Positions 5,938 through 38,471 of a stretch of 39,123 bases of DNA are shown piece after piece. Each line of letters starts with the position of its first letter. Within the stretch, counting starts at the first letter, position 1. Origin of the DNA: Deltaproteobacteria bacterium (lineage in GTDB: Bacteria > Desulfobacterota > GWC2-55-46 > DRQE01); contig WGEY01000004.1 in the NCBI GenBank assembly GCA_015492495.1, positions 1-39,123 on the forward strand, written 5' to 3'. The position numbers and the translations under genes are program-made. The notes below the pieces were generated by a model. That model did not search any database, was not told the DNA's origin, and saw only the letters and a list, made by a program, of their open reading frames with translations.

Positions 5938-5977
5938 GGGCTTCGGTGGTGCGTTTGTACGGAAGGGGAAGGATCGG

Positions 5978-7402
5978 GTGAAGAAAAAGAGGGTGTTGTT
6001 GGTCTCTCCTCCGAAGGGGCTTGTTGCCGGAGAGCCGGAAAGGCCGAAGTTCCAGACGCATCCTCTCGGCCTTTTGTACGTGGCGAGTGTGCTGGACGGT
6101 AACGGTCACCAGGTAAGGATCTATGACGCGTACAGCTTCGGTAACACCCTCGGTGAGATCAAAAGGGAAGTCTTGGACTTTGACCCTGATGTGGTGGGCG
6201 TAACATCGATGACGATCCTGGCAAAGGACGCCTATTTGATCGCAAGGACCGTTAAAGAGATCAACGCCGCGATTATTGTAGTGATGGGCGGTCCGCACGT
6301 GAGCGCCCTTCCCGAGGAGGCGCTTCGAACAGGCTGCGTGGACGTGGCGGTCATGGGAGAAGGCGAACACACCATGCTTGAGATATGTGAAGGTGAATGG
6401 CGCGGTTTTGCCTGGATCAAAGGTATTGCCTACAGGTGTGGAGAAAGGATCGTCAGGACCCCGGCAAGGGTGAAGACAGAGGCGCTGGACAGTATCCCCT
6501 TCCCGGCGTATCATCTCCTCCCGTCGATGGACAGCTACAATCCACCGCCTCATTGGGGTAAGAAGGGAGGTTTCGCCTCGATGTTGACCTGCAGAGGGTG
6601 TCCCTATGACTGCACATTCTGTTCGGTGACAAGGGACTGGGGCAGGAAGTACCGCTTCAGAAGCGCAGGGAACGTCCTGGACGAGCTGGAGATGCTTCAT
6701 GGCAGGTACGGTGTTCGGTACGTCTCGTTCAGGGATTCGGTCTTCACGCTGCATAAAAGAAGGGTTATCGAGATATGCAGGGGCATGATCGAAAGAAGAA
6801 TCCGCATCGTATGGAACTGTAACGGCAGGGTGAACGAGGTGGACCCCGAGATGCTCTCCTGGATGAAGAGGGCGGGGTGCAAAGCCATACAGTACGGCAT
6901 AGAATCGGGTAATGAAGAAATACTGTCCAGGTTCAAGGGGCTCGAGAAGGATACGATAAGAAGGGCCATTGACATGACGAGCAGGGCAGGGATAGAGGCC
7001 CACGGATACTTCATGTTCGGTCTTCCCGGAGAGACAAAGGAGACGATGCACGATACCATAGAGTTTGCAAAAAGCCTTGACCTCCACTCGGCCGGCTTTA
7101 CATCGGTGACTCCGTTCCCTGGTTCCGCCCTGTGGGACTATTGCATAGAGAACAACCTCATACTGACGACCGACTGGGGCGAGTACGACCTCAAGGGGCT
7201 GCCGCCCGCAAGGCATGCGAACCTGACCTCGGCGGAAATACTGGATGCCCAGAAGGCCGCGTTCAGGCAGTTTTATCTGCGGCCGAAGGTTATCTTCAGA
7301 CACTTGAAGGATATAAGGAGCATGAACGACATGACGAATTACTTATACGAGGCGCTTATAAACCTCAGGAAGAACAATAAGGTGAAGAGAAGGGCTCATT
7401 AG
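5978..7402 (+). CDS. B12-binding-type radical SAM protein (1)
   Basis: I chose GTG 5978 (about 474 aa, MKKKRVLLVSPPKG) because a purine-rich SD lies just upstream; the open frame extends to GTG 5921 inside the previous gene. Residues about 1-160 form a cobalamin-binding-type Rossmann domain (HPLGLLYVASVLDGNGHQV, VVMGGPHVSALPEE, DVAVMGEGEHT). The radical SAM core has Cys at about 208, 212 and 215 in CPYDCTFC, then the GIESGNEEIL and GLPGETKETM motifs of class B enzymes. Relatives include C-methyltransferases and other B12-dependent enzymes, and many are uncharacterised. The classical DxHxxG B12 motif is not seen, which is common in this class. The context suggests modification of a sugar or lipid carrier. 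Confidence 0.85.
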   Translation: MKKKRVLLVSPPKGLVAGEPERPKFQTHPLGLLYVASVLDGNGHQVRIYDAYSFGNTLGEIKREVLDFDPDVVGVTSMTILAKDAYLIARTVKEINAAIIVVMGGPHVSALPEEALRTGCVDVAVMGEGEHTMLEICEGEWRGFAWIKGIAYRCGERIVRTPARVKTEALDSIPFPAYHLLPSMDSYNPPPHWGKKGGFASMLTCRGCPYDCTFCSVTRDWGRKYRFRSAGNVLDELEMLHGRYGVRYVSFRDSVFTLHKRRVIEICRGMIERRIRIVWNCNGRVNEVDPEMLSWMKRAGCKAIQYGIESGNEEILSRFKGLEKDTIRRAIDMTSRAGIEAHGYFMFGLPGETKETMHDTIEFAKSLDLHSAGFTSVTPFPGSALWDYCIENNLILTTDWGEYDLKGLPPARHANLTSAEILDAQKAAFRQFYLRPKVIFRHLKDIRSMNDMTNYLYEALINLRKNNKVKRRAH

Positions 7403-7475
7403 ATTTCATCGCATGATCTCCTCGCTTTGCTCGATCTGATAGATGTCCGTACGGAGACGAGAGGGTCGATCCAAG

Positions 7476-8873
7476 ATGAACGTTTTTTTGAGGAGTCCTA
7501 TTAAAAAGAAGCAATATGTATTGCTGGTCGTCGACGTTCTTATCATATTCTTCGTCTTCGTCTTTGCGTATGCCTTCAGAATAGTCGTCTATGAAGGAGA
7601 AAACATCAACGTCCTGTCGGCACGCTTTTCGTGGCTGGTTCTGCTGGCCGTACTCCTGCATCTTGTCAGCTTTTACATCTTCGAGCTCTACAGCATCGAC
7701 ATAAAGAGGTCCGGGGTAAACCTTTTTTCACTGATAACCATAGCCGTCCTGTTCGCAGTCGGACTCATTGCCATCGCTGGATACATCTTCCCGCAGGCAA
7801 GGCTGGGCAGGGTGATAGTAAGCATACATACCCCGGTCCTTATTACGATCCTGTTCCTGTGGCGAAGGTTTTTCTACGCGGTGGTTTTGAGGAAGTCCCC
7901 GAGGAATAATCTTCTTTTGATCGGCTCTGATTGTTCGCTTAAGGAAATCAGGAACCTTCTGGAGAGATACCGGATGGTCGACTACAACCTGAGTGCAGTG
8001 ATCTGTGACTACAAGGATAACCCCGGGCTCATAGATATCAACGGTGTCGAGCACGGGCCAAGCCTGGAGTCGTTTGTTAAAAAGAGCAGGATAAGGACGA
8101 TAGTCATGGCCGATGAGTTCAAGAAGTCATCCAGGTTGAAGAGGGAGCTTATAGACCTCAAGTTCGCCGGCATTGAGATCTACGACATGCCGACCTTCTA
8201 CAAGAAGTTGACCGCAAAAATCCCCGTACTTCATATCGGTGACGACTGGGTGCTCTTCTCCAACCAGGACAAGTCATTCAATCCGGCGGTGTACCTGAAG
8301 CTCAAGCGCATAATGGACGTCGTCTTCGCAGGCGCAGGGCTGGTTCTTTCGGTTCCGCTTTTTCTCATAATCGCCCTTGCCGTCAGGTTGACCTCGAGGG
8401 GGCCGGTGATCTTCAGACAGCAGCGGCTGGGGTTGAACGAGAGGCCGTTTACGTTGTTGAAGTTCAGGACCATGGTCGATGACGCGGAAAAGGAGACCGG
8501 CCCGAGGTGGTCGAGCGCTTATGACCCGAGGATTACGCGGGTCGGCAGGTTCCTTAGAAAGACACGGCTCGATGAGATCCCCCAACTCGTCAACATACTG
8601 AGGGGTGAGATGAGCTTTGTAGGACCGCGCCCTATAAGGAAGCACTTTGCAGAACAGCTTGAAGAGTGGCTTCCGTACTATCGACTCAGGTTCACGGTCA
8701 AACCAGGGATCACCGGCTGGGCGCAGGTAAGGGGTGATTACGCCGGCTCCGTCGAAGGGCAGTTGAAAAAGCTCGAATACGACCTTTTCTACATACAGAA
8801 CCGTTCAATGTTTCTGGATCTCTTCATCATACTCAAGACGGCCCAAACGGTCCTCTTCAGGCGGGGTCAGTGA
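7476..8873 (+). CDS. polyprenyl-phosphate sugar-1-phosphate transferase (WbaP/PNPT family)
   Basis: The 465-residue enzyme starts at ATG 7476 (MNVFLRSPIKKK), with GAGGG 10-14 bases upstream; ATG 7443 lacks an SD. It has four N-terminal TM helices, a central CoA-binding-like Rossmann domain (NLLLIGSDCSLKEIRNLL) and a fifth membrane segment (KRIMDVVFAGAGLVLSV). The C-terminal bacterial sugar transferase domain contains PVIFRQQRLG, FTLLKFRTM, TRLDEIPQLVNILRGEMS, FVGPRP and KPGITGWAQVRG. These are the catalytic signatures of enzymes that load the first sugar phosphate onto undecaprenyl phosphate. This is the initiating transferase of the locus. Its sugar cannot be decided, but glucose, galactose or a diacetamido sugar are family options. 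Confidence 0.93.
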   Translation: MNVFLRSPIKKKQYVLLVVDVLIIFFVFVFAYAFRIVVYEGENINVLSARFSWLVLLAVLLHLVSFYIFELYSIDIKRSGVNLFSLITIAVLFAVGLIAIAGYIFPQARLGRVIVSIHTPVLITILFLWRRFFYAVVLRKSPRNNLLLIGSDCSLKEIRNLLERYRMVDYNLSAVICDYKDNPGLIDINGVEHGPSLESFVKKSRIRTIVMADEFKKSSRLKRELIDLKFAGIEIYDMPTFYKKLTAKIPVLHIGDDWVLFSNQDKSFNPAVYLKLKRIMDVVFAGAGLVLSVPLFLIIALAVRLTSRGPVIFRQQRLGLNERPFTLLKFRTMVDDAEKETGPRWSSAYDPRITRVGRFLRKTRLDEIPQLVNILRGEMSFVGPRPIRKHFAEQLEEWLPYYRLRFTVKPGITGWAQVRGDYAGSVEGQLKKLEYDLFYIQNRSMFLDLFIILKTAQTVLFRRGQ

Positions 8874-23463: not shown

Positions 23464-24335
23464 TATTCATCTCCTCTTCAGCGGTGAAGGCCGGGGATAT
23501 GGAGGGCTGTCTCGACGAGCTGGTGAAAGCCGGGTTCAGGAACATCGAGCTGAGCGGCGGGACGAGGTTCAACGGGGATCTTTCTGAGATGCTTACGGGT
23601 TACAGACAGAGGTATTCGCTCAATTTTCTCGTCCACAACTACTTTCCGCCGCCTGAAGACGACTTCGTTCTGAATATCGCGAGCACGGACGAGGCGGTGA
23701 GAACGAGGAGCGTGGAGTTCGTCAAAACGAGCATCGAGCTGGCCCGCAGACTCGGATCACACCTTTACACAGTGCACGCGGGATACACGAGGAACTTAAG
23801 CCCGGGTACCGACGGCCGTTTTGTTGTGGACCGTTCCGACGGGACGGGGAGCGGGGAGGCGGAAAGGATCATGCTCCGTTCCATGGCCGAGATCGAAGGG
23901 CATGCGGCCAGGTTCAATGTGAGGGTCGGCGTGGAGAACCTCTTTCCGGTCGAGGAGGCGCAGGATGCCTCGCTCATGTGCACGCCGGTGCAGATACTCG
24001 GGTTTCTCGATTCAGAGGTAGGCAAGAAGACGGGACTCCTTCTCGACCTCGCACACCTCGAAATCTCATCGAGGATACTCTGCTTCGACAGGGACGGGCT
24101 CGTAGACGCCCTCAGGCTGGGATACCGCGACAGTATAGTGGGGCTGCACCTGTCGGCCAATGACGGACGGAGCGATCTGCACGGCTTGTTGCCGCCGGGA
24201 AGCTGGCAGCTCGAGGCCGCGGCAAGCCTATGGTCCGCCGGGTTGCCGGTGACCTTGGAGTGCAGGGCAGTGGGGGGGGATAAGGCGTTTGAACAATACC
24301 GGATGGTCAAAGATTGCCTGGAAGGGAGTGGTTGA
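23460..24335 (+). CDS. TIM-barrel sugar isomerase/epimerase-like protein
   Basis: A 291-residue protein of the xylose isomerase-like (AP_endonuc_2) fold. GTG 23460 overlaps the previous stop (GTGA). Family strands are seen in order: FISSSAVKAGDMEGCLDELVKAGFRNIEL (two segments), FLVHNYFPPPED, LYTVHAGYTRNL, VGVENLFP with a metal-ligand Glu, TGLLLDLAHLEI and VTLECRA. His and Glu/Asp residues at strand ends fit a divalent metal site. No standard step of legionaminic or sialic acid synthesis needs such an enzyme, so it may give an isomer or feed a side branch. Specific function unknown. Confidence 0.75.
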   Translation: MIFISSSAVKAGDMEGCLDELVKAGFRNIELSGGTRFNGDLSEMLTGYRQRYSLNFLVHNYFPPPEDDFVLNIASTDEAVRTRSVEFVKTSIELARRLGSHLYTVHAGYTRNLSPGTDGRFVVDRSDGTGSGEAERIMLRSMAEIEGHAARFNVRVGVENLFPVEEAQDASLMCTPVQILGFLDSEVGKKTGLLLDLAHLEISSRILCFDRDGLVDALRLGYRDSIVGLHLSANDGRSDLHGLLPPGSWQLEAAASLWSAGLPVTLECRAVGGDKAFEQYRMVKDCLEGSG

Positions 24336-24337
24336 CG

Positions 24338-26020
24338 GTGTTGCATGATCTGAGTTCCATACAGATCCCCGAGGACAAGAGCATCATCGAGACCATGAAG
24401 GCCATAAACGAGTCGGCATCGAAGTTCGCGCTCATAGTCAACAAGGATGAGCGTCTGGTGGGGATAGTGACCGACGGCGACATACGCAGGGGGTTTCTGA
24501 ACAAGCACAGCCCGAACGAGCCCATAAAAAACATCATGAACAGGTCACCGGTTGTAGCCAGGGAGAGCCTGGGGCGCGAGGCCATACTGGAGCTTGTAAA
24601 CGACAAGTTCGCACAGATACCGGTGGTCGATGGCAGGGGGCGAGTCAAGGGTGTTCTCACCTTCAAGGACAAGAGCGTGTTGCTGGATGCAAGGTCGAGG
24701 CGCATATGCGTGCTCGGGCTGGGCTTCGTGGGCCTTACGATATCGGTCGTTTTGGCGGAGCTCGGCTTCAAGGTCTACGGGTTCGACATAAACGAAAAGC
24801 TCATAGAAAAGGTCGGGAAGGGGCAGACACCCTTTCATGAGAACGGTCTTTCGGGTTACCTGCACAGGTTCGTGGGCAAGAGGCTCTTTCCGGTGACCGA
24901 CCTGAACGGCTCGGATGCGGATACCTACATAATAACCGTGGGAACCCCGGTCGACCCGGTGACAAGGGAGCCGGCGATCCACTATATAGAGGATGCGGCA
25001 AGGACCATAGCGCGACGGCTGAAGCCCGAGGATCTGGTGGTACTGCGTTCGACCGTACCGGTCGGCACAACCCGTAACGTGGTACTTCCCATCCTGAACG
25101 AATGGAGCGGTCTGAAGGCGGGGGTCGATTACTACCTGGCGTACGTGCCCGAAAGGACCATCGCCGGCAGGGCCATCACCGAGCTCAAGGAGCTTCCGCA
25201 GGTCATAGGGGGCTATGACAAGAAGAGCACCATGATAGTTGACAGGCTCTTCCGCGAGATAACACCGACCATAGTGGATGTCGGCTCGCTGGAGGGAGCC
25301 GAGATGGTCAAGATACTCAACAACACCTTCAGGGACGTGAGGTTCGGCTACGCCAACGAGATGGCGCTCGTGTGCAAGGAACTGGGGCTGGACATGGTCA
25401 AGCTGGTCCAGGCCGCGAACCTCGGCTATGTGCGCGATGAAATACCTGTGCCGAGCCCGGGCGTGGGAGGGGCCTGTCTGACGAAAGATCCCTACATCCT
25501 CATGTACTCGTGCAGGAACCTGAAGTACCGGCCGAGGATTGTGGAGCAGTCGAGGAAGGTAAATGAATTCATCCCGGCACAGATCGTCGAGGAGGTGGCG
25601 GAGGAGATCGTACGGCTTGGAAAGAGGAAGGACGCGCTCAAGGTCTTTATCATGGGTTTCGCCTTCAAGGGGGAGCCCGAGACATCGGACACGCGCGGCT
25701 CGACCACGCTTGCCCTCCTGGATTCTTTGCGCAGCAACGGGTTCAACGGACGCTCCCTCGTCGGCTACGATCCGGTGGTGCCCGATGAAGAGATAGAATC
25801 GTTCGGCGTAAAGCCGGTTGCACCGGCCGAAGGCTTCGTTGATGCGGACGTGGTGGTGATCATGAACAACCACAAGAGCTACAAGAAGATGGATATCTTT
25901 GAGCTCCTGAACACCGCCAGGGAGGACTGCGTCTTCGTGGACGGATGGCACATCTTTGAACCGAGGGACATCAAGACCATAAACTCGGTGAGGTACATAG
26001 GTACGGGATGCAGGGCATAG
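24338..26020 (+). CDS. CBS-pair fused to nucleotide-sugar (UDP-ManNAc-type) dehydrogenase
   Basis: The protein has about 560 residues from GTG 24338, which has GGGAG nine bases upstream; TTG 24332 overlaps the previous stop and is also possible. Residues about 5-112 are two CBS domains with VGIVTDGDIRR. The rest is a complete dehydrogenase: CVLGLGFVGLT (NAD loop, 127-132), TVGTPVDP, RSTVPVGTT, YVPERTIAGRAITEL, and catalytic Cys at about 380 in GVGGACLTKDP. GFAFKGEPETSDTRGS and YDPVVP follow. YVPER and CLTKDP resemble UDP-ManNAc or archaeal-type dehydrogenases rather than UDP-glucose enzymes. A CBS pair at the N-terminus of this family is unusual and suggests ligand control. Such a uronate product is not part of a plain legionaminic route. 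Confidence 0.88.
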   Translation: MLHDLSSIQIPEDKSIIETMKAINESASKFALIVNKDERLVGIVTDGDIRRGFLNKHSPNEPIKNIMNRSPVVARESLGREAILELVNDKFAQIPVVDGRGRVKGVLTFKDKSVLLDARSRRICVLGLGFVGLTISVVLAELGFKVYGFDINEKLIEKVGKGQTPFHENGLSGYLHRFVGKRLFPVTDLNGSDADTYIITVGTPVDPVTREPAIHYIEDAARTIARRLKPEDLVVLRSTVPVGTTRNVVLPILNEWSGLKAGVDYYLAYVPERTIAGRAITELKELPQVIGGYDKKSTMIVDRLFREITPTIVDVGSLEGAEMVKILNNTFRDVRFGYANEMALVCKELGLDMVKLVQAANLGYVRDEIPVPSPGVGGACLTKDPYILMYSCRNLKYRPRIVEQSRKVNEFIPAQIVEEVAEEIVRLGKRKDALKVFIMGFAFKGEPETSDTRGSTTLALLDSLRSNGFNGRSLVGYDPVVPDEEIESFGVKPVAPAEGFVDADVVVIMNNHKSYKKMDIFELLNTAREDCVFVDGWHIFEPRDIKTINSVRYIGTGCRA

Positions 26021-27030: not shown

Positions 27031-28139
27031 AGAACATCCCAGTTGCGCAGCCCCTCTTGGGCGAGGAGGAGGCCAGGGCCGTCTATAATGTGGTCAGATC
27101 CGGCTGGATCAGCTCGGGCGAGAAGGTGAAGGAGTTCGAGGAGGTGTTCGCCTGCTACGTCGGATCGAGGTACGCCGTTGCCACCACCAACGGTACCGCG
27201 GCACTGCACCTTGCGCTCATCGCCTCGGGCGTGACAGAGGGGGACGAGGTGCTCGTGCCCGACATAACATTCATTTCCACGGCCAACGTGGTCTTGTACG
27301 AGCGTGCGGTACCGGTTCTGGTCGAATGCGATCCAAGGACATACAACATTTCCCTCGAGGACGCAGAGAGGCGTCTGACCCCCCGGACTAAGGCCGTGAT
27401 TGCGGTTGATATGAACGGTTTGCCGGTTGATTACGACGCAATGGAGGAGTTCACCTCAAGACACGGGCTCAGGCTCATCGCAGACAGCGCCGAGTCGCTC
27501 GGTGCCGTGTACAAGGGCAGAAAGGTCGGAAGCATCGCGCCGTTCCACATATTCAGCTTCTTTCCCAACAAGAACATCACCACCGGCGAAGGAGGCATGG
27601 TCACGACGAACGACGGCGAATGTGCGGAGCTTCTTCGCAGGCTCCGCAACCAGGGGCAGGAACGCCGCTACCTGCACACTCACCTCGGATACAACTACCG
27701 AATGCCGAATCTGCCGGCTGCCATCGGCCTGGAGCAGCTGAAGAAGATAGAGACCATCCTCTCGGAAAAGGAGCGGATAGCGGGGCGTTACAGCCGCGCC
27801 TTCGAAGACGATGACGACATCGCACCTCCGTACATCCCGGACTACGTCGACAGGCACTCCTGGTACATGTATGCGGTAACACTCGACGCTTCTGTCGACA
27901 GGGACTCGGTGGTTACAGGGCTGCGTGCAAGGGGAATAGATACGCGGCTCAGTTTTCCGCCCGTTCATGTGCAGCCGTACTACCGGGAGCGTTTCGGATA
28001 TTGCGAGGACTCCTATCCCATGAGCCTCAACGCCTGGAAGCGGCTCTTGAACCTGCCGTTATGGGCGGGTCTTACGGAAGAGGATCAGGACCGTGTTGTA
28101 GACAACCTCAAGGAGCTTGTAAGGGAGCATAGGAGATGA
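27027..28139 (+). CDS. DegT/DnrJ/EryC1-type sugar aminotransferase
   Basis: A 370-residue PLP-dependent aminotransferase for 4-keto sugars. It begins IPVAQPLLGEEEARAV and has SGWISSG, ATTNGTAALHLAL, EVLVPDITFISTANVVLY and IADSAESLGA. SFFPNKNITTGEGGM carries the PLP Lys, and LGYNYRMPNLPAAIGLEQL follows. The sequence looks closest to perosamine synthase/PglE-like enzymes; LegC belongs to the same superfamily and fills this place in legionaminic loci. With LegB, the NeuD-type and LegG genes nearby it probably aminates C4 of the LegB product. ATGA overlaps on both sides indicate tight coupling. Confidence 0.9.
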   Translation: MKNIPVAQPLLGEEEARAVYNVVRSGWISSGEKVKEFEEVFACYVGSRYAVATTNGTAALHLALIASGVTEGDEVLVPDITFISTANVVLYERAVPVLVECDPRTYNISLEDAERRLTPRTKAVIAVDMNGLPVDYDAMEEFTSRHGLRLIADSAESLGAVYKGRKVGSIAPFHIFSFFPNKNITTGEGGMVTTNDGECAELLRRLRNQGQERRYLHTHLGYNYRMPNLPAAIGLEQLKKIETILSEKERIAGRYSRAFEDDDDIAPPYIPDYVDRHSWYMYAVTLDASVDRDSVVTGLRARGIDTRLSFPPVHVQPYYRERFGYCEDSYPMSLNAWKRLLNLPLWAGLTEEDQDRVVDNLKELVREHRR

Positions 28140-28837
28140 AGGTGCTCGGGCTCATACCGGCAAGGGGTGGATCCAAACGCGTCAAGAGGAAAAACCTGCG
28201 TCTCCTCGCCGGTAAGCATCTGATAGTGTATACCCTGGATGCCGCGCTGCAAACCGAGGCCATAGACCGCCTCGTAGTGTCGACCGATGACGCGGAGATA
28301 GCCGAGGTAGCCCGCAATCACGGCGTGGACGTGCCTTTTCTTAGGCCGTCGTACCTTGCGGGTGATTCCATACCGGACCAGCCGGTCTTCAGGCACGCCG
28401 TAGATTGGCTCATGGAACACGAAGGCTTTGAACCGGACATCATACTGAACCTTCGTCCCACCACCCCGTTCAAGACACCGGAGATAATCACCAGGGTCGT
28501 ACGGACGATGACAGAGACCGGTGCCGACATCGTGCGGACGGTGACGCGCGTTGAGGGGGTTAACCATCCTTACTGGATGTACAGGCTCTCGGATGACGGA
28601 TGCGCCATGCCGGTCATCGAGCATGTGGACATCAAGGACTACTACCAGAGCCAGCTGCTCCCGCCCGTGTACCGCATAAACGGTGTGGTCGATGCGTTCC
28701 GCACCCATGTGGTCAGGAGCGGGGAGATGTTGAGCAACAGTAATATGACGGGTGTCGTAATACCCGCCGAGAATTCGATCGACATAGACGATGAGTTCGA
28801 CTTCAAGGTCTGCGAGTTGTTGATGGAGGCGATATAA
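28136..28837 (+). CDS. neuA: CMP-nonulosonate synthetase, NeuA/LegF type (2)
   Basis: A 233-residue acylneuraminate cytidylyltransferase. LGLIPARGGSKRVKRKN (4-20) is intact, then RLVVSTDDAEIAEVA, VPFLRPSYLA, LNLRPTTPFKTPE and, near the end, IDIDDEFDFKVCE with the metal-binding Asp. It starts by ATGA overlap with the aminotransferase and ends the legionaminic-type block. It is the natural partner of the LegI-type synthase at 21782. It shares about the same frame of motifs with the copy at 13250 but differs clearly in sequence, so the two probably act on different acids. Confidence 0.92.
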   Translation: MKVLGLIPARGGSKRVKRKNLRLLAGKHLIVYTLDAALQTEAIDRLVVSTDDAEIAEVARNHGVDVPFLRPSYLAGDSIPDQPVFRHAVDWLMEHEGFEPDIILNLRPTTPFKTPEIITRVVRTMTETGADIVRTVTRVEGVNHPYWMYRLSDDGCAMPVIEHVDIKDYYQSQLLPPVYRINGVVDAFRTHVVRSGEMLSNSNMTGVVIPAENSIDIDDEFDFKVCELLMEAI

Positions 28838-28857: not shown

Positions 28858-30213
28858 ATGACGATACTTTTCATAAACAGGCATAACGACATAGACCATG
28901 TGGTCCCCATAGCATACAGGCTTGCGAAGGATGCATCCGAGGAGGTCGCGGTTCTGTGCATTAATCCGGTTTACGACATAGAAGGTGACTTCAGGTTGAG
29001 GTTTCTCAAGGAGATCTGCGGCGTGACAGTCGACTATGCATACTGCCGTTACCAGCCCACGGTCGTACACAGGGTCTTCGGTTCTATTATCAGGAGCCGT
29101 TACTTCCAGGGGACATCCAGGAGAATGCTGCGCTCGCTCTTCAGGAGAAAAAGATCCGAAGGGTGCAGCGTGGTGGATGGCTTCAAGTATCTCTTCTTCG
29201 CCGTCTTTAAAAAGACCATGTTCTGGCGTGTGTTCAACGGCCTTCTTGTAAGGTATTGCTACAACGTCAAGTGGGCCGAGGGGTTGTTCGCGAAACTCGG
29301 ACCTTCGAGGCTCGTCTTCGACTTCGCCTGCCGCTCGAAACTTCTCATCGTGGACGCGCTCATGGGAGCGGCAAGGCGAAACGGCATAAAGGTGATATTC
29401 GTTCCGCACGGACTGTACTATTTTCCTCAGAACCACTGGCAGATGAGGAATCACCTGCCGCCTCTTAGGGAACACGAGCCCGATGCGATAATCGTCTCGC
29501 ACAGGGCATGGGCAGAGGAGCTTGCGGCAAACGGCATAGAGCCTTCAAGGATACACGTGCTGGGGAGCGCGAGATACTGCCGCGAGTGGAGCGAGATCCT
29601 GCACGCCATAACGCCTCCGGCCGCACTCCCCGCAGGCGATGGTCCGCGGTTGCGGGTGCTTTACATGGAAAGGCAGGCCAACCGCCATGGCAAGTACAAG
29701 GACGTCGTGGGCGAGACGATAAGAAGGCTGAGTCGTCTTCCGTATGTACACCTCCTCATCCAGCCGAGCACCAGGTCGAAGAAGGTGCACTTCGACACAT
29801 CGGATCTGCCCGAAGGGTGCGTAACCTCAGTGGACTCGGTCAACCTGTGCATGTGGGCGGATGTGGTCATCTGCCTTTCAAGCATCATGTTCGAGGCCAT
29901 GGCGTTGAAGAAGATATATATCAACGCCAAGTTCCTCCACGGTGAGGTCCTGCTGAGCGAGTTGTACGGGGCCGGATTGACCGTCAACAGCTACGACGAA
30001 CTGGAGGAGGCCTTGATGAGGATAAGTCAGGACCCCTCGTACAGGCCGTATCGCAAAGAAGACGTGGAACGCTTCATGACCGACATGATTTACGGAGGGA
30101 GGGCGGGCAGGGACGTCCTCGGCGGATACAGAGATCTTATACTTTCACACGGAGGAAGATTTGAAGCAGACGAACTCGAGGCCGAAGGTAAGCGTTGTCA
30201 TCACGGCACGTAA
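28858..30213 (+). CDS. putative GT-B/CDP-glycerol-transferase-like protein
   Basis: A 451-residue protein that I cannot assign to a firm family. It looks two-domained: an N-terminal Rossmann-like start (ILFINRHNDIDHVVPIAYRL), then VIFVPHGLYYFPQNHW, PDAIIVSHRAWAEELAANGI and IHVLGSARY, and a C-terminal nucleotide-binding-like part (RVLYMERQANRHGKYKDVV, VHLLIQPSTRSKK, DVVICLSSIMFEAMALKKI). The His-Gly motif, the LGSARY motif and the S-S-x-M-F-E-A element are what GT-B and CDP-glycerol-glycerophosphotransferase-like proteins show. Placed after a CMP-sugar synthetase it is a candidate nonulosonate transferase. The last 53 bp overlap the next gene. Confidence 0.6.
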   Translation: MTILFINRHNDIDHVVPIAYRLAKDASEEVAVLCINPVYDIEGDFRLRFLKEICGVTVDYAYCRYQPTVVHRVFGSIIRSRYFQGTSRRMLRSLFRRKRSEGCSVVDGFKYLFFAVFKKTMFWRVFNGLLVRYCYNVKWAEGLFAKLGPSRLVFDFACRSKLLIVDALMGAARRNGIKVIFVPHGLYYFPQNHWQMRNHLPPLREHEPDAIIVSHRAWAEELAANGIEPSRIHVLGSARYCREWSEILHAITPPAALPAGDGPRLRVLYMERQANRHGKYKDVVGETIRRLSRLPYVHLLIQPSTRSKKVHFDTSDLPEGCVTSVDSVNLCMWADVVICLSSIMFEAMALKKIYINAKFLHGEVLLSELYGAGLTVNSYDELEEALMRISQDPSYRPYRKEDVERFMTDMIYGGRAGRDVLGGYRDLILSHGGRFEADELEAEGKRCHHGT

Positions 30214-31651
30214 TTACGGCAAGTACATCTGTCAGTGCATCGACAGCGTCATAAACCAGAGGTACGACGACCATGAAATCATCGTGGTCAATGACGGAAG
30301 CACCGACAATACGGCCGTGATACTCGCTGATTATGAGAGAAAGTATCCTGGAAGGCTCGGGGTGATAACGCTCGACGGCGTGGGGCTCGCCGGTGCGTGC
30401 AACAGGGGCATAAGGGCGTCAAGGGGCGAGTACATCGTAAGGCTCGATGCGGACGACTACTTCGACGAGAATCTCCTGCTCCTGGAGTCGAATATCCTGG
30501 ACTCGGATCCGCACATACACATGGTGTACCCTGATTATTACCGCATAACGAGACACGGCGAGATCATCGACTATTGCAGGCTTTCCAAGGCGAATGTGGA
30601 GGTGAAGCTCCTTGACCGGAGTCCTCTTGCCGCCGGTGCCATGTACAGGAGGGAGTGTTACGACGCCATAGGCGGCTACAACGAAGAGCTAAGCTTTCAG
30701 GAGGACTATGACTTCTGGGTGAAGTTCATCGACAAGTTCAACGTCTACAACATCAACCTGCCGCTCCTGTACTATCGCCAGCACGGCAACAACATGTCGA
30801 AGAACTTCGAGGCCAGGATGGAAGCCCGCAGGTATGTAAAAAAGAAGTTCGTCCTTGAAAAGGGATACAGGGAGGGCAAGAAGATATTGGCCGTGATTCC
30901 GGCGATGGGACTCTTCAGGAACAAGGAGAAGCTGGCGTTAAGGGATCTGGCCGGCAGGCCGCTCATAGCATATACGATAGAAGAGGCCAGAAAGACCGAG
31001 CTGATAGACAGGGTGGTGGTATCCACGGAGGACCGCGAAATCGCCGAGGTGGCCGTAAGATACGGCGCCGAGGTGCCGTTTTTGCGCCCCGTGTCCCTTG
31101 CGAGGACCTGTGTGCCGGTCGACGATGTCTTGAGAAACCTCCTCGAGGGTTTGAAGGAGATGGACGGCTACGAACCGGATATAGTCGTCGTTCTGCAGTA
31201 TTATGCGCCGTTCAGAAAGGAGTGCCATATAACCGAGGCCATAGATACGCTGCTTCTGTACGATACCGACTCGGTCATAAGTGTTACGCCGGATATATCG
31301 TTCCACTGGAAGCCCGGCAAGTACGGATTGACGCCCGTGGGCTACCAAAAGAGGTTGCTGCGCGAGGACAGGGAGACCGTCTACAAGGAGACCGGTTCGG
31401 TATACGTCGTCAGGGCGGACAATATAAGATCAGGCGGCTACCTCGGTGAGGTGATAGGCCATACGGAGATGTCCAGGACCGAGGCGTGGCGTATAGAGGA
31501 CGACTTCGATCTGTGGGTGGCGGCCAAGTATATCGAGGAGAGGGCGTTGAGTGAAGGACAAGGTTGTGCTGGTACAGCCGAGGAACACGCTTGCGCTGAA
31601 CATCTATCCACCGCTGAACCTGATAAAGATAGGTTCGGCGCTGCAGGCTGA
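30161..31651 (+). CDS. GT2 glycosyltransferase fused to a degenerate CMP-sugar synthetase domain
   Basis: A 496-residue protein with TTG start and GGAGG five bases upstream. Residues about 8-235 are GT2: VSVVITARNYGKYI, VVNDGSTDN, DxD-type DADD (96-99), AAGAMYRR and EDYDFW (181-186). Residues about 242-462 align with acylneuraminate cytidylyltransferases (DLAGRPLIAYTIEEA, VVVSTEDREIAEVAV, VPFLRPVSLAR, RIEDDFDLWVA). However, the nucleotide loop PARGGSK is PAMGLFR, the following KN is LA, and the LDPTSPFR-like motif is LQYYAPFR. The second domain is probably inactive, or a CMP-sugar-binding module. The final 33 codons run out of frame through the next gene and are low in complexity. Confidence 0.85.
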   Translation: MKQTNSRPKVSVVITARNYGKYICQCIDSVINQRYDDHEIIVVNDGSTDNTAVILADYERKYPGRLGVITLDGVGLAGACNRGIRASRGEYIVRLDADDYFDENLLLLESNILDSDPHIHMVYPDYYRITRHGEIIDYCRLSKANVEVKLLDRSPLAAGAMYRRECYDAIGGYNEELSFQEDYDFWVKFIDKFNVYNINLPLLYYRQHGNNMSKNFEARMEARRYVKKKFVLEKGYREGKKILAVIPAMGLFRNKEKLALRDLAGRPLIAYTIEEARKTELIDRVVVSTEDREIAEVAVRYGAEVPFLRPVSLARTCVPVDDVLRNLLEGLKEMDGYEPDIVVVLQYYAPFRKECHITEAIDTLLLYDTDSVISVTPDISFHWKPGKYGLTPVGYQKRLLREDRETVYKETGSVYVVRADNIRSGGYLGEVIGHTEMSRTEAWRIEDDFDLWVAAKYIEERALSEGQGCAGTAEEHACAEHLSTAEPDKDRFGAAG

Positions 31652-33041
31652 GGGATACGATGTAAGGATCATCACCGCTCCGACCATCAAGCACCCCGTT
31701 AAGACCGTCGTCGATGAATGCAGGGATGCGCTGATGATGGGTATAGGGGTTCTTACCTCGGAGATGCCGGATGCCATAGAGATCGCACGTGCCGTAAGAA
31801 GGGAGTGCAGGCTTCCCATTGTATGGGGCGGCTGGCATACGACCCTCTTTCCGGAGCAGATGGCCAAAAGCACCTTGGTGGACAGGGTTGTCGTGGACGA
31901 GGGCGACGAACTCATAGTGAAGATAGCGGACCACTACCGTAAAAACGGCTACAGGGAAGGCGATGGATGCAGGATATTCAGGAACAGGAACAAGTTGAAC
32001 CTTGACAGTCTGCCCATGCCTGACTATGGTCTCGTGGCGGAGATAGAACGGTACATAAACACGCCGTTGACCGACAAGTTCCTGGAATACGACAAGAGGA
32101 GGATCAGGTGGCTGCCGTACGAGGCTAGCCGCGGCTGCCCCTCGAACTGCACCTTTTGCATCAACGTGGTGACCGGAAACCGCCTGTACAGGCGAAAGCG
32201 CCCCCGGAAGGTACTGGAAGAGATAGAAACCTTGGTCGAGAGATACAACATAAACCACCTCAAGATCATCGACGACAACTTCTTCGTCGACGTCAAGTGG
32301 GTGAAGGAGATCGCAAGGGGTCTTGTTGAAAGAAGACTGGGACTTACCTGGGATGCGGAATGCAGGGTGAACTACTTCAATGACAATCATGTCAACGACG
32401 AGTGCCTGGAACTATGCGTTAAAAGCGGGTTGAACGAGCTGAACTTCGGTATCGAGTCCGGATCCCAGCGTACACTTGACATAATGAAGAAGGGTATAAC
32501 CCCGGAGCAGTCCATTCGCGCCGTGGAGACCGCATCGAGGCACGGTATCGTGTCGAGGTGCTCATTTATCATAGATATCCCCGGCGAGAGGAAGGAGGAC
32601 ATCTACAAGACCGTGGAGCTCGTAAACAGGATAAGGCAGATACCGAGGACGACCTGCGGGGTACATACGTACAGGCCGTATCCAAGGAGTGAGCTCTGCG
32701 AGGAACTCCTCAAAAGCGGCGTGATAAGCCAGCCCGACACCATGGAGGGGTGGGCCGACAAGGAGTACATCGAGCAGTTCACCTACACCGATGCAAAGAG
32801 AAAATGGCAGAAGAACTACAGGATATCGAGCAAGATCAGTTACTACCAGAGCCTTGAGTCGGGCATGTGGCTCAAGCCGCACCAGGTCCGCAGCAGGACC
32901 GTTGCGGCGATCAACAGGTTCTTCATGAATATCGCCCGCTTGAGGAACCGGAAGACCTTTTACGGGTTCGCCATAGACCGCTATATGTACAATTTTTTCA
33001 AGGACATCTTCTACAGGTACCATCAATGGAGCAAGTTATGA
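31551..33041 (+). CDS. B12-binding-type radical SAM protein (2)
   Basis: A 496-residue protein with GTG start 31551; GAGG/GAGAGG lies about 8 bases upstream. Residues about 1-130 are a B12-binding-type domain (YPPLNLIKIGSALQAEGYDV, IVWGGWHTTLFPEQ, VVVDEGDE). The radical SAM cluster motif is CPSNCTFC with Cys 196, 200 and 203. LNFGIESGSQRTLDIMKKG and FIIDIPGERKEDI are conserved core motifs. The C-terminal 120 residues are basic and unlike the other two copies. It overlaps the previous ORF by 101 bp and the next gene by ATGA. Likely roles are methylation or another radical change of a sugar or lipid intermediate. The substrate is unknown. Confidence 0.87.
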   Translation: MKDKVVLVQPRNTLALNIYPPLNLIKIGSALQAEGYDVRIITAPTIKHPVKTVVDECRDALMMGIGVLTSEMPDAIEIARAVRRECRLPIVWGGWHTTLFPEQMAKSTLVDRVVVDEGDELIVKIADHYRKNGYREGDGCRIFRNRNKLNLDSLPMPDYGLVAEIERYINTPLTDKFLEYDKRRIRWLPYEASRGCPSNCTFCINVVTGNRLYRRKRPRKVLEEIETLVERYNINHLKIIDDNFFVDVKWVKEIARGLVERRLGLTWDAECRVNYFNDNHVNDECLELCVKSGLNELNFGIESGSQRTLDIMKKGITPEQSIRAVETASRHGIVSRCSFIIDIPGERKEDIYKTVELVNRIRQIPRTTCGVHTYRPYPRSELCEELLKSGVISQPDTMEGWADKEYIEQFTYTDAKRKWQKNYRISSKISYYQSLESGMWLKPHQVRSRTVAAINRFFMNIARLRNRKTFYGFAIDRYMYNFFKDIFYRYHQWSKL

Positions 33042-33895
33042 AGGTGGTGGCCGTGATACATGCAAGGATGACGTCGTCGAGGCTTCCGGGCAAGGTGCTG
33101 AAGGATCTGGGCGGCAGGTCGGTCTTTTACCACCACTATGAGAGGCTCTCTCGGTGCGCAAAGATCGACAAGATATACCTTGCTACATCCAAGAGCGAGA
33201 CCAACGATCCGCTCAGGGAAGAGGCCAGGAGGTACGGCGTGCCGTGCTACTCCGGGGCCGAGGAAGACCTGCTCGAGCGATACACATCCATAGCGAGGAA
33301 AGAGAGTCCCGATGCGGTCGTAAGGTGTGGATGCGACAAGCCCCTTTTCAGCTACGAGGTCGTCGACCACCTGCTGGACGCATACGACGGTGAGGACCTC
33401 TTGTACGTCACTACACCTCTGGGAAAGGGGATAGGCTCCGAGGTCCTTTCCCCTGCCGCGCTCGAAAGGATACACGAGCATTACAGGGGACCGGCTATCG
33501 CCAAGTACGTCTTTGAATATCCGCATCTCTTCAATACGAGGGGGGTGGAGGTGGACGACGAATTTTCCAGGCCTGAATTCAGGCTCACGCTGGATACTGC
33601 CGAGGATTACGAGCTTCTGAAGACGATATACGACCGGTTTTACGAGGACGGGGTCCCTGTGGACATAAGGGAGGTCTTCAAATACCTCGATGACAACCCG
33701 GACATAGCCAACATAAACCGTTTCACCGAGGACAAGTACGTGAACACCTACCTGAAGGATCTGCAGGAGAGGGCGGTCTTTTCCGTCTACCAGGCGCGTA
33801 GCGGAAGATGTGTCGTCAGAAACCGCATGGGAGAGGTCATAAGCCCAGGCGAGTTTCTCGATGCCGTGGGAAAGCTTGACTGGGAGGAAGGCTGA
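33038..33895 (+). CDS. spsF: SpsF-type cytidylyltransferase-like protein
   Basis: The protein has 285 residues from ATG 33038, which has GGAG close upstream and an ATGA overlap; the longer frame from 32867 lies inside the previous gene. The start MKVVAVIHARMTSSRLPGKVL is split over the NTP-binding loop typical of SpsF (COG1861), followed by DLLERYTSIAR, VVRCGCDKPLF and FRLTLDTAEDYEL. SpsF proteins are found in spore-coat and surface polysaccharide loci next to SpsE/NeuB-type synthases and are thought to be nucleotidyltransferases. Here the third NeuB-type synthase lies 3.5 kb downstream. The last 50 residues (YQARSGRCVVRNRMGEVIS) extend beyond the domain. Confidence 0.85.
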   Translation: MKVVAVIHARMTSSRLPGKVLKDLGGRSVFYHHYERLSRCAKIDKIYLATSKSETNDPLREEARRYGVPCYSGAEEDLLERYTSIARKESPDAVVRCGCDKPLFSYEVVDHLLDAYDGEDLLYVTTPLGKGIGSEVLSPAALERIHEHYRGPAIAKYVFEYPHLFNTRGVEVDDEFSRPEFRLTLDTAEDYELLKTIYDRFYEDGVPVDIREVFKYLDDNPDIANINRFTEDKYVNTYLKDLQERAVFSVYQARSGRCVVRNRMGEVISPGEFLDAVGKLDWEEG

Positions 33896-33897
33896 AG

Positions 33898-34890
33898 ATG
33901 TCCTCGGGCAACCCCTATCATGAACTCAACTTCCTGAAGAGCACCTGGAACAAGTTCAAGGCGGTGGGTATGAACCCCGGGTACTTCACCTACAGGTTGA
34001 AGTGGAATCTCCTGGGGAGGTACCCGATAAGGACCAGGGTTCCCACGCACGTGGATATAGAGCTATCGAGCTTCTGCAACCTGAGGTGCACGATGTGTCC
34101 CCACGGCGACGACGGACAAGACATACAGAAGGGGCTCATCGATTACGATGTTGCGCTGAAGGTGATCAGGGAGTGCGAGGAATTCGGTGTCTCGTCGCTC
34201 AAGTTCAGCGGACGAGGCGAGATGCTGCTGCATCCGAGGTTCGAGGAGATCGTCGCCTCTGCCAAGTCCGCCGGCATCCTTGATGTGATGTTCAACACCA
34301 ACGGGCTGCTGTTGACGCCCGAGAGGGCGCGTAGCGTCATGGACAGTGGCGTCGACCTGATAATAATCTCCATAGACGGCGCCACCAGGGAGACATACGA
34401 AAAGATACGCGTGGACGGAGACTATGACACCTTGTTACGTAACGTCGAGTTCATCATAGACTACAGAAAGAAGAGCCGAAGGACAAAGCCGCTTATAAGG
34501 CTTCAGTTCGTGAAGATGAAGGACAATATACACGAGTTCGGGATGTTCCGTGAGATGTGGAAGGACAAGGTCGATGTCCTGGTGGGGCTGGATTATTCTA
34601 ACCGTTCGTCACGGGAGGACAGGTCCGTAAGTTATAGGCAGCCAGTGGGTCGAGCCTGGTGTCCCCATCCATGGCGGCGCCTGACGGTCACATCAAGCGG
34701 CACCGCGCTCATGTGTTGTGTGGACTGGGACGTCAAGTATGCGGTCGGGGACTGCAGGAAGGAGACCATCTTCGAGATATGGAATGGAAAGAGGATCGAG
34801 CACGGCAGAAGGTGCATAAAGGCGCTCGAGCACCACAAGATCCCGTCGTGCAGGGACTGCTTCGCGCCGATCAGCTACAGGTGGCGGTGA
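33898..34890 (+). CDS. radical SAM protein with SPASM-like C-terminus
   Basis: A 330-residue protein. The cluster motif CNLRCTMC has Cys 60, 64 and 67, preceded by HVDIELSSF. Core motifs are SLKFSGRGEMLLHP, MFNTNGLLLTP and IISIDGATRETYEKIR. The C-terminal region has WCPHPWRRLTVTSSGTALMCC, GDC and PSCRDCF (separate short motifs), a Cys set expected for an auxiliary 4Fe-4S SPASM/twitch domain. Family members dehydrogenate, epimerise or crosslink substrates, often peptides or sugars. There is no B12 domain. It starts 2 bp after spsF. A sugar-modifying role is inferred from context only. Confidence 0.85.
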   Translation: MSSGNPYHELNFLKSTWNKFKAVGMNPGYFTYRLKWNLLGRYPIRTRVPTHVDIELSSFCNLRCTMCPHGDDGQDIQKGLIDYDVALKVIRECEEFGVSSLKFSGRGEMLLHPRFEEIVASAKSAGILDVMFNTNGLLLTPERARSVMDSGVDLIIISIDGATRETYEKIRVDGDYDTLLRNVEFIIDYRKKSRRTKPLIRLQFVKMKDNIHEFGMFREMWKDKVDVLVGLDYSNRSSREDRSVSYRQPVGRAWCPHPWRRLTVTSSGTALMCCVDWDVKYAVGDCRKETIFEIWNGKRIEHGRRCIKALEHHKIPSCRDCFAPISYRWR

Positions 34891-35893: not shown

Positions 35894-37324
35894 ATGAGTA
35901 TAGGTGAGTGCAATATAGATCTTGACGGAAGGAAATCCGCTTTCAGGATTCTTTTCATTTCTCCTGCCAGCCTCGAGTTCACGAACTTCGAGTCCGGGAG
36001 GCCGACAGCCATCTCTCACTCGCCGAACCTGAGCCTGTCCTTTCTTTACCACTGGCTCAAGATGAAGTTCGCGGACCGGGTGGATATCAGGACCATAGAG
36101 CAGGTCAACTACAACATCCCCTTCGAGGATATGCCCGAAGTGATCCGGACCTTCGATCCCCACCTTGTCGGCATTACATCGTCGACCTTCAACCTCCTCG
36201 GTGCATACAGGATAGCCAGGACTGTGAAGGAAACCTCGCCCGAATGCACGACGGTCCTCGGAGGCGCCCATGCCACGGTGCTCCCGGTCCACACGCTCAA
36301 AGAGTGCGGGGACATTGACATATGCGTCTGCGGCGAGGGCGAGCTCACCATGGAGGAGCTGGTGGAGCACCTGATGTCTGGCGGCTCCACGGACGAGATG
36401 CGGCGCATAAAGGGCATAGCCTATCGTTCCGACGAGGGCAGGGTGGTGCAGACACCCTCCCGTCCGGTCATCGACGATCTTGACATCCTGCCACATCCCA
36501 CGTACGAGGAGTACGACATGAACCGCATAGACTACAGGTTCTGTCCCATAACCAATAAGAATGAAATCTATTTTTCGGTCTTCAGCTCACGCGGCTGTGT
36601 TTTCAAGTGTGCCTTCTGCACACCGGTGCTGCCAAGAAAGTTCAGATACAGAAGCCCGGCAAAGGTGATCGAAGAGATACGCTACCTGCGCGAGAAGTTC
36701 GGGGCCGAGGTCATCTACTTCGAGGACAGCTGCATGTCCACGAACAAGAACTGGTTCAGCAAGGTCTGTGACGACTTCATATCCTCGGGCCTTTCGTCCG
36801 AAGTCCGCTGGGGATTCGAGACCCGCGTGGACCTGGTGGAGCCCGAGTTGATGAGAAAGGCGGTCAGGGCCGGATGCATCTTCGTGAACTTCGGCCTCGA
36901 GTCCGGAAGCGACCTCGTACTGAAGATGAACCGTAAGGGATTCACCAAGGACACAATATTGAAGTCATTGAAGGTCACCAGGGAGAGCGGAGTTCAGATC
37001 ATTCACGGAAGTTTCATCCTGGGACTTCCCTACGAGACGAGCGGGACGGTAGAGGAGACCATGGAGTTCATCGACAAGGTCGACCTGAACATGATCCCCA
37101 TCAATGTCGCCGACGTGTATCCCGGCACCGAGTTCTTCCGCATGGTCGACAGAGGGGATGGGGGGCTGCGCTGGATCCCGGGGCAGAGGATGAACTGGGA
37201 GGCGTACCGCAGGGACACGTTGATGACCGAGGTGAATGACCTTGACAAGGACCGGCTGCTCGATTATTACCGCAAGATCCTGGACAAGGTCGAGCGGAAG
37301 ACATCGATAAGGTACAGCATATGA
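35894..37324 (+). CDS. B12-binding-type radical SAM protein (3)
   Basis: A 476-residue protein, ATG 35894 with CGGAGG about ten bases upstream. The N-terminal B12-type domain spans about 17-160 (ILFISPASLEF, VLGGAHATVLPVHTL, ICVCGEGELTMEEL). Radical SAM Cys are 235, 239 and 242 in CVFKCAFC. EVIYFEDSCMS, VNFGLESGSDLVL and FILGLPYETSGTVEE follow. The overall plan is like the copies at 5978 and 31551, but sequence is clearly different, so the three are paralogues rather than a duplication. Its stop overlaps a small open frame by ATGA. Confidence 0.87.
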   Translation: MSIGECNIDLDGRKSAFRILFISPASLEFTNFESGRPTAISHSPNLSLSFLYHWLKMKFADRVDIRTIEQVNYNIPFEDMPEVIRTFDPHLVGITSSTFNLLGAYRIARTVKETSPECTTVLGGAHATVLPVHTLKECGDIDICVCGEGELTMEELVEHLMSGGSTDEMRRIKGIAYRSDEGRVVQTPSRPVIDDLDILPHPTYEEYDMNRIDYRFCPITNKNEIYFSVFSSRGCVFKCAFCTPVLPRKFRYRSPAKVIEEIRYLREKFGAEVIYFEDSCMSTNKNWFSKVCDDFISSGLSSEVRWGFETRVDLVEPELMRKAVRAGCIFVNFGLESGSDLVLKMNRKGFTKDTILKSLKVTRESGVQIIHGSFILGLPYETSGTVEETMEFIDKVDLNMIPINVADVYPGTEFFRMVDRGDGGLRWIPGQRMNWEAYRRDTLMTEVNDLDKDRLLDYYRKILDKVERKTSIRYSI

Positions 37325-37458
37325 AGACCATGAAGAGGTTGCTTTCCCGTGCATTTCATTTATCCGGAGACGCGGAATACCGGCGCAAACGTCTCTGGAT
37401 CTTAGCGGGATCCATCACTGGCAATGTCGGACCTAATAAGGAGGGGGTTGATGCATGA
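37321..37458 (+). CDS. possible small protein, 45 aa (hypothetical)
   Basis: A 45-codon frame fills the 130-bp gap. Its ATG (37321) overlaps the previous stop by ATGA and its TGA (37456-37458) overlaps the next ATG (37455) by ATGA. It begins MKTMKRLLSRAF and is basic (about ten Lys/Arg), with a short hydrophobic stretch WILAGSI. No family is recognised. An SD for the next gene (AAGGAGGGGG) lies inside it. The two exact ATGA junctions, the same coupling used by established neighbours, are the only support. It could be chance. Confidence 0.4.
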   Translation: MKTMKRLLSRAFHLSGDAEYRRKRLWILAGSITGNVGPNKEGVDA

Positions 37459-38471
37459 AGATAGGCGATCGTGATATCGGAAAAGGCGTTTTTATTACCG
37501 CCGAGATCGGGAACAACCATAACGGCGACTTCGAAACGGCGGCGAGGATGATCGAAGAGGCGGCCCGCTGCGGGGCCGACGGGGTGAAGCTGCAGCTCTT
37601 CAGGGCCGAGAGGCTTGTCACGGAGTCGGCCCCGTCCCATCTGCCTCACCTGACCGGAGGACGGTCGATCTTTGAAAGGTTCAAGGGCCTTGAGTTATCA
37701 AAGGAAGAGCTGCTTAAGCTGGCCGGAGTGGCGAAACGGGCCGGGGTGGTCTTCTTTGGAAGCGTCTTCGATAGAGAGAGCGCCGACATGGTCGAAGAGA
37801 TCATGCCGGTCTACAAGATAGCATCCTGCGACATCACCAACTTCCCCCTGATCAGGCACGTGGTCAAGAAGTGCAGGCCGGTCATCGTGTCGACCGGAAT
37901 GGCCTCGCTGGAAGAGATAGGGGCGGTGATGAACGAGATTCCCAGGGACCGCCTGATCCTGCTTCACTGCGTATCAAGGTATCCGGCCCCGGCTGAGACG
38001 GTGAACCTGAGGTCCATACCCTTTCTGCGCGAAGAGTTCGGCGTACCGGTAGGCTACTCCGATCACACCGTGGGCAGTGTGTCCGCTCTCGGTGCCGTCG
38101 CACTGGGTGCCGTGATGATCGAAAAGCACTTTACGCTGGACAAAAATCAGGAGATGGGTGACCACAGGCTGTCGGCCGAACCACGGGACTTGAGATACCT
38201 GGTGGACGGCATAAGAAGTATGGAGACCATGCTGGGCCGCTACATGAAGGAGCCGGACGGGGCGGAGCTTGAGACGAGCAAGGTCATGAGGCGGAGCATC
38301 TTTGCCAGGGAAGACATACCCGTGGGGACGGTCCTCACCCAGGATATGCTGATTCCCCTTAGGCCGGCGGTGGGCCTCTCCCCGGCCCTCATAGACGATG
38401 TGATAGGCAGAAAGGTCGTCAGGCACGTGAAGAAGGGCACACCGTTGACAAGGGAGATGCTCTCCTGGTGA
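37455..38471 (+). CDS. neuB: nonulosonic acid synthase, NeuB/SpsE family (3)
   Basis: A 338-residue PEP-dependent synthase. FITAEIGNNHNGD, GADGVKLQLFRAERLV, FGSVFDRESAD, YKIASCDITNFPL, STGMASLEE, GYSDHT and EKHFTLDKNQEMGDH are barrel motifs; the SAF domain has intact MRRSIF and LRPAVGLSP. ITAEIGNNHNGD and the shorter middle region set it apart from the other two synthases, so its acceptor sugar is probably different. AGGAGGGGG lies about eight bases before ATG. It ends at 38471 and a 115-148-bp spacer leads to the formyltransferase. Confidence 0.9.
   Translation: MKIGDRDIGKGVFITAEIGNNHNGDFETAARMIEEAARCGADGVKLQLFRAERLVTESAPSHLPHLTGGRSIFERFKGLELSKEELLKLAGVAKRAGVVFFGSVFDRESADMVEEIMPVYKIASCDITNFPLIRHVVKKCRPVIVSTGMASLEEIGAVMNEIPRDRLILLHCVSRYPAPAETVNLRSIPFLREEFGVPVGYSDHTVGSVSALGAVALGAVMIEKHFTLDKNQEMGDHRLSAEPRDLRYLVDGIRSMETMLGRYMKEPDGAELETSKVMRRSIFAREDIPVGTVLTQDMLIPLRPAVGLSPALIDDVIGRKVVRHVKKGTPLTREMLSW

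Follow-up and report, generated by a model that had tools for sequence, protein, structure and literature searches.

Described relatives of the two halves

The closest described relatives of the protein analysed here are the CMP-nonulosonate synthetases of the NeuA/PseF type. In characterised NeuA enzymes, Arg12, Ser15, Lys16 and Lys21 hold the phosphates and Asn22 contacts the ribose, while Asp209 and Asp211 bind magnesium, with D209A being the most severely affected of the metal-site mutants (PMC2901514, PMC6580227). Known NeuAs mutated at Lys21, Asn22, Asp209 or equivalent residues lost most of their activity (PMC2901514). Arg71 reads the cytosine base (PMC6580227), and Arg165 extends from the dimerisation arm into the active site of the partner subunit, where it binds the sugar carboxylate (PMC2901514, PMC6580227). 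The structures 6ifd, 1eyr, 9ftb and 9t4z share the whole fold and the dimerisation arm (Z 25-28) with the second half of a fusion protein encoded in the window, i.e., the whole stretch of 39,123 nucleotides that was analysed. Unlike these enzymes, the fusion carries the domain behind a family 2 glycosyltransferase (GT2), has a new motif at the tip of the arm and belongs to a separate lineage.

Stand-alone GT2s, such as the Leptospira enzyme 6p61 and the E. coli K4 chondroitin polymerase, have the same GT-A domain with its DxD motif but, in contrast to the fusion, no synthetase-like domain. The DxD of GT-A enzymes goes with NDP-sugar donors and a metal, and we know of no GT2 that uses CMP-sugars. 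A glycosyltransferase and a NeuA domain are joined in a single chain, as in the fusion, in Campylobacter jejuni Cj1143; however, in this GalNAc-transferase/NeuA protein the NeuA is active and the transferase belongs to another family than GT2. Our literature search retrieved no paper on the Cj1143 fusion. A GT2 gene with a synthetase gene immediately behind it also occurs in a nonulosonate operon, the pseudaminic-acid operon of Parabacteroides (L053), but there the two genes are separate and the PseF loop (PARGGSKRIPHKN) is intact. The SpsF-type cytidylyltransferases belong to the same Pfam family (PF02348) and are encoded beside most of the fusions; the SpsF of the window, unlike the domain in the fusion, has an intact P-loop.

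Dead relatives of active enzymes (pseudoenzymes) have been studied in depth for kinases and for some glycosyltransferases. Our literature search, which covered subscription journals sparsely, returned no fused or inactive CMP-sialate synthetase that fits and no prior report of a dead one kept as a domain, in agreement with the original prediction that no such system had been described.

The fusion gene, its neighbours and its distribution

The features of the fusion gene and its product are as follows:

30161-31651, plus strand: whole gene of the GT2 and NeuA-fold fusion, 496 aa, TTG start
30182-30784, plus strand: GT2 domain with a GT-A fold, residues 8-208 (PF00535; structure match to 6p61)
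30785-30871, plus strand: helical linker, residues 209-237 (helix 216-234 in the AlphaFold2 model)
30872-31558, plus strand: predicted pseudo-CMP-nonulosonate-synthetase domain with the full NeuA fold, residues 238-466 (VcNeuA 6ifd; PF02348/PseF)
31562-31648, plus strand: C-terminal tail, residues 468-496 (pLDDT <50; lacking in most homologues)

The gene overlaps the upstream gene (to 30213) at its 5' end and the next one (start 31551) at its 3' end, and its TTG start is matched by equivalent start sites in the aligned homologues. Pfam assigned residues 11-118 to GT2 (PF00535, E 8e-30, 104 bits) and residues 259-369 to CTP_transf_3 (PF02348, E 8e-12, 46 bits). The best NCBIfam model was PseF (residues 243-425, E 6e-26), with 91.5 bits against a cut-off of 205.7, which is a weak test because the loop-intact NeuA of the window at 28136 also scores only 131.9; no matched NCBIfam model covers both domains together. 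The AlphaFold2 model, built from an alignment of 20 fusions, had a mean pLDDT of 85 and a pTM of 0.81. The solved structure closest to its GT2 half was the Leptospira glycosyltransferase 6p61 (Z 29.7, 36% identity), while the synthetase half matched the Vibrio cholerae CMP-Neu5Ac synthetase 6ifd over 217 residues (237-464), arm included, with Z 28.1. The reading frame, both Pfam and PseF matches and the full NeuA fold of the model thus bear out the predicted joining of a GT2 to a CMP-sugar-synthetase domain. The DxD of the GT2 half (Asp96-Ala-Asp98-Asp99, DADD) was invariant in all 20 aligned fusions, and since it is intact, an NDP-sugar donor is suggested and a CMP-nonulosonate donor appears unlikely.

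The neighbouring genes include the following:

28136-28837, plus strand: loop-intact CMP-nonulosonate synthetase of the PseF/NeuA type (profile matches, alignment)
28858-30213, plus strand: putative glycosyltransferase, matching GT4 weakly (L032 and L035 have homologues close to the fusion)
31551-33041, plus strand: B12-binding radical SAM protein (adjoins the fusion in L029 and L031 too)
32867-33895, plus strand: SpsF-type cytidylyltransferase, P-loop ARMTSSRLPGK intact (profile match, sequence)
33898-34890, plus strand: radical SAM/SPASM protein (a recurrent neighbour of the fusion)
37455-38471, plus strand: NeuB-type synthase (closest relatives often directly adjoin the fusion in other genomes)

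The nonulosonate cluster of the window has three NeuB genes and holds four radical SAM proteins (5921-7402, 31551-33041, 33898-34890 and 35894-37324), three of them B12-binding and one of the SPASM type. The window also encodes, at 24314-26020, a UDP-glucose/GDP-mannose dehydrogenase with an N-terminal pair of CBS domains.

A search for the same fusion in other genomes, proposed in the original prediction together with a check of the loop, gave 26 further fusions of this type from bacteria and archaea (27 in total), none of which has Lys21 or Asn22. Nineteen of them came from one scan of species genomes and belong to Omnitrophota, Nitrospirae, Desulfomonile, Elusimicrobia, Hadarchaeum, haloarchaea, Pacearchaeota, Anammoxibacter, Chloroflexi, Verrucomicrobia, Acidobacteria and Alphaproteobacteria. 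The phylum of the window contributed five more genomes (6 of 297 in all), the haloarchaea one more (2 of 194) and an Azospirillum plasmid the last. This wide but sporadic spread would fit a gene that has moved between lineages. A search of a phage collection found one distant synthetase only. Most of the loci come from metagenome-assembled genomes (MAGs). The fusion is, however, borne by the closed chromosome of a Halomicroarcula haloarchaeon (L039; NZ_CP119794.1) and by the Azospirillum plasmid (L052), which is complete and where it is annotated merely as 'glycosyltransferase family 2 protein', and these two replicons rule out an assembly chimera.

Lost and retained residues of the synthetase half

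The residues of the 27 fusions were compared with those of 21 loop-intact synthetases, i.e., 19 from these or related genomes, 1eyr and 6ifd. The relevant sites of the window's protein are listed below:

30899-30937, plus strand: degenerate P-loop by alignment, residues 247-259, PAMGLFRNKEKLA (NeuA: PARGGSKGxPxKN)
31085-31087, plus strand: Arg309, equivalent to NeuA Arg71
31361-31396, plus strand: tip of the dimerisation arm by alignment, residues 401-412, REDRETVYKETG; Arg401 is equivalent to NeuA Arg165
31490-31510, plus strand: metal-site remnant, residues 444-450, RIEDDFD; Asp209 replaced by Arg444 and Asp211 by Glu446

Lys21 and Asn22 were present in all 21 comparison synthetases and in none of the 27 fusions. 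Arg12 was kept in 10 of the 27, Ser15 in 7, Thr106 in 3 and Asp209 in a single one. In the window, the positions of Arg12, Ser15, Lys21 and Asn22 are occupied by M, F, L and A, respectively, and an equal-length alignment to the N. meningitidis NeuA reproduced the motif changes described earlier (PARGGSK to PAMGLFR, KN to LA and PTSPxR to YYAPFR). The accompanying statement that the metal site IEDDFD is retained proved wrong, as Arg444 and Glu446 stand where NeuA has its magnesium-binding Asp209 and Asp211; the remaining Asp450 corresponds to position 215, outside the two reported ligands. The metal argument is weak on its own because Asp209 occurs in only 13 of the 21 comparison synthetases.

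The degree of loop loss differs among the fusions. In the window's clade, a basic residue (Arg) stands at position 16 in 13 of 13 members and a Lys stands one residue before position 21 in 9 of 13, so a weak phosphate contact may be possible there. In the other fusion group, the loop pattern is gone. Archaeal fusions have kept parts of the loop (PARAKSR in L034 and PARGESRIDGGK in L037). The early Lys and the L037 loop, which is one residue longer, mean that the alignment may be shifted by one residue at these places, and the strict claim that Lys21 became hydrophobic was softened for this reason. Taken together, the comparison gives good support to the predicted pseudo-synthetase, and the C-terminal half is, judged by its residues, very probably dead as a synthetase.

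Several other residues are largely kept. Arg71 was found in 26 of the 27 fusions and Arg or Lys at position 165 in 23; as in NeuA/PseF, the Tyr/Phe172-x-x-Asn-Gly region was also retained, with Tyr/Phe172 in all 27 and Gly176 in 23, and the window's protein has in addition kept Gln104 in the alignment to NeuA. The arm tip of the fusions carries a new, near-invariant charged motif, R-x-[DE]-[RK]-E-x-x-[YF]-x-[ED]-[NT]-G. Among the synthetases, mean pairwise identity is highest in the P-loop (70%) and the arm has one of the lowest values (23%). This usual pattern is inverted in the fusions, where the arm ranks with the best-conserved parts and the P-loop is poorly conserved: the values for P-loop and arm were 34% and 58% in the window's group and 16% and 31% in the other. 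Arg71 and the arm could persist for reasons of folding, and the most diverged fusions (L045 and L052) have little of the pocket left.

The tree placed all 27 pseudo-domains on one side of a branch with a support of 94/96, and dN/dS was about 0.2 in the pairs of fusions with unsaturated dS. These values point to an old pseudoenzyme lineage that is still constrained, with a domain that appears repurposed and not decaying. The 27 open-frame fusions and the purifying selection, where measurable, rule out a local mutation or a pseudogene, and the refutation that the original prediction had tied to a local mutation fails because the lineage is conserved.

Gene context and candidate roles

A profile search of the flanks, which were of unequal length (4 to 39 kb), found a NeuB-type synthase in 26 of the 27 loci, the exception being L029, a contig of 7.9 kb. 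Intact cytidylyltransferases (NeuA or SpsF) were encoded in 25 of the loci. The frequent gene orders were SpsF - fusion - NeuB and SpsF - NeuA - fusion - NeuB, and radical SAM/SPASM proteins recurred around the fusions. It is thus very likely that the fusion is part of a nonulosonate pathway. The nearby SpsF was often joined to a second NeuB in one chain; such proteins stand beside the fusion at L033 4100-5917, L036 4220-6001, L041 4229-6007 and L128 11433 (minus strand), and L129 has the NeuB/SpsF fusion in the reversed order. Three loci encode a NeuA-NeuB fusion with a short NeuA-like part ahead of NeuB (L125 5622, minus strand; L126 2, minus strand; L127 4603, plus strand). At L086 1501-2718, an intact NeuA was, by eye, apparently joined to a HAD phosphatase-like domain.

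Because the fusion nearly always lies beside nonulosonate-making genes, its dead half is probably kept for recognising such a sugar or for holding the enzyme together. The reading that we favour, although tentatively, is that the domain provides the GT2, within a nonulosonate-glycan cluster, with a module for dimerisation and nonulosonate recognition. Two fusion chains would pair through their arms in the manner of NeuA, and the pocket at the interface would be formed by Arg71 of one chain with Arg165 and the new arm-tip motif of the other. This pocket would hold a nonulosonate, whether free, linked to CMP or terminating a growing glycan, with no reaction taking place, and the GT2, presumably with an NDP-sugar donor, would add a sugar onto the nonulosonate-bearing acceptor. 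Such an acceptor-reading, dimerising module is favoured because the retention of Arg71, Arg165 and the arm agrees with a dimer whose interface pocket recognises a nonulosonate; the loss of the ribose contact Asn22 in all 27 fusions counts against it, and the acceptor-reading mechanism itself is proposed a shade more cautiously than the module. If confirmed, it would be a case of a metabolic enzyme turned into a substrate reader, it would flag a set of bacterial and archaeal nonulosonate-glycan clusters that await characterisation, and it would help to identify the transferases in them that act on nonulosonates.

After the acceptor-reading module, we rank docking next, followed by the holding of a donor and plain dimerisation. 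Docking to an active synthetase and the holding of a CMP-nonulosonate are the two roles put forward in the original prediction, and the kept Arg71 and Arg165 would agree with the binding of a ligand. Docking would mean that the pseudo-domain heterodimerises with the active NeuA or SpsF of the operon, either bringing the GT2 to the site of activation or lending Arg165 in trans. In NeuA, two subunits together form the active site (PMC2901514, PMC6580227), and an intact NeuA gene overlaps or abuts the fusion in L034, L038, L039 and L128; in L049, such a gene immediately precedes a fusion of a second type (see below). In L034, moreover, the pseudo-domain and the adjacent NeuA (6697-7380 and 7361-8077) have in common a tract of 164 bp, 92% identical, that is bounded by the P-loop and the Arg71 loop. 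Their P-loops themselves remain different, and the shared tract is probably the result of gene conversion. However, four fusion-bearing MAGs (G344, G356, G357 and G221) gave no stand-alone NeuA and show SpsF, and the partners vary (NeuA, SpsF or a NeuA-NeuB fusion whose synthetase part is very short), whereas the pseudo-domain has one type of arm throughout. Docking to NeuA could therefore not easily be universal, and we consider docking unlikely.

Improbable, too, is a pocket that keeps the product-like CMP-nonulosonate and hands it over to the GT2, which would then be an unusual nonulosonate transferase. Arg71 would contact the cytosine and Arg165 the carboxylate of such a donor, and the basic position 16 and early Lys of the window's clade would suit it, but the Asn22 and Lys21 positions are altered in all fusions and the invariant DxD points to NDP-sugars and a metal. 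We give the same low standing to a ligand-free domain that just pairs two GT2 units: the inverted conservation of arm and nucleotide loop agrees with it, whereas the kept Arg71 and Arg165 of the pocket, the new charged motif at the arm tip, where the NeuA ligands are bound, and the close to strict association with NeuB do not. It is a little harder still to credit that the pseudo-synthetase clamps CMP-nonulosonate as the acceptor, to be glycosylated by the GT2; if true, this would yield glycosylated, already activated CMP-nonulosonates, built up while attached to the nucleotide and only then passed on to the glycan. A still-active synthetase with a rebuilt loop and alternative metal ligands, for which the loop remnants of the archaeal L034 and L037 and the Gln104, Arg71 and Arg165 of the window might speak, is very improbable in view of the missing Lys21 and Asn22 (27 of 27), the single Asp209, the loop-intact synthetase usually encoded alongside and the mostly inactive mutants of these or equivalent residues in known NeuAs (PMC2901514).

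A second kind of GT2-synthetase fusion, with a different GT2, was found in the genome that carries the L030 locus (L049 16379-17758, minus strand), directly behind an intact NeuA. Its relative in another genome (L094 1450-2799, minus strand; L094, L131) lies beside NeuB, and this kind likewise lacks the loop. The tree separates it from the first kind, so the second kind may well be of separate origin and such fusions may have two origins, although its branches are long.
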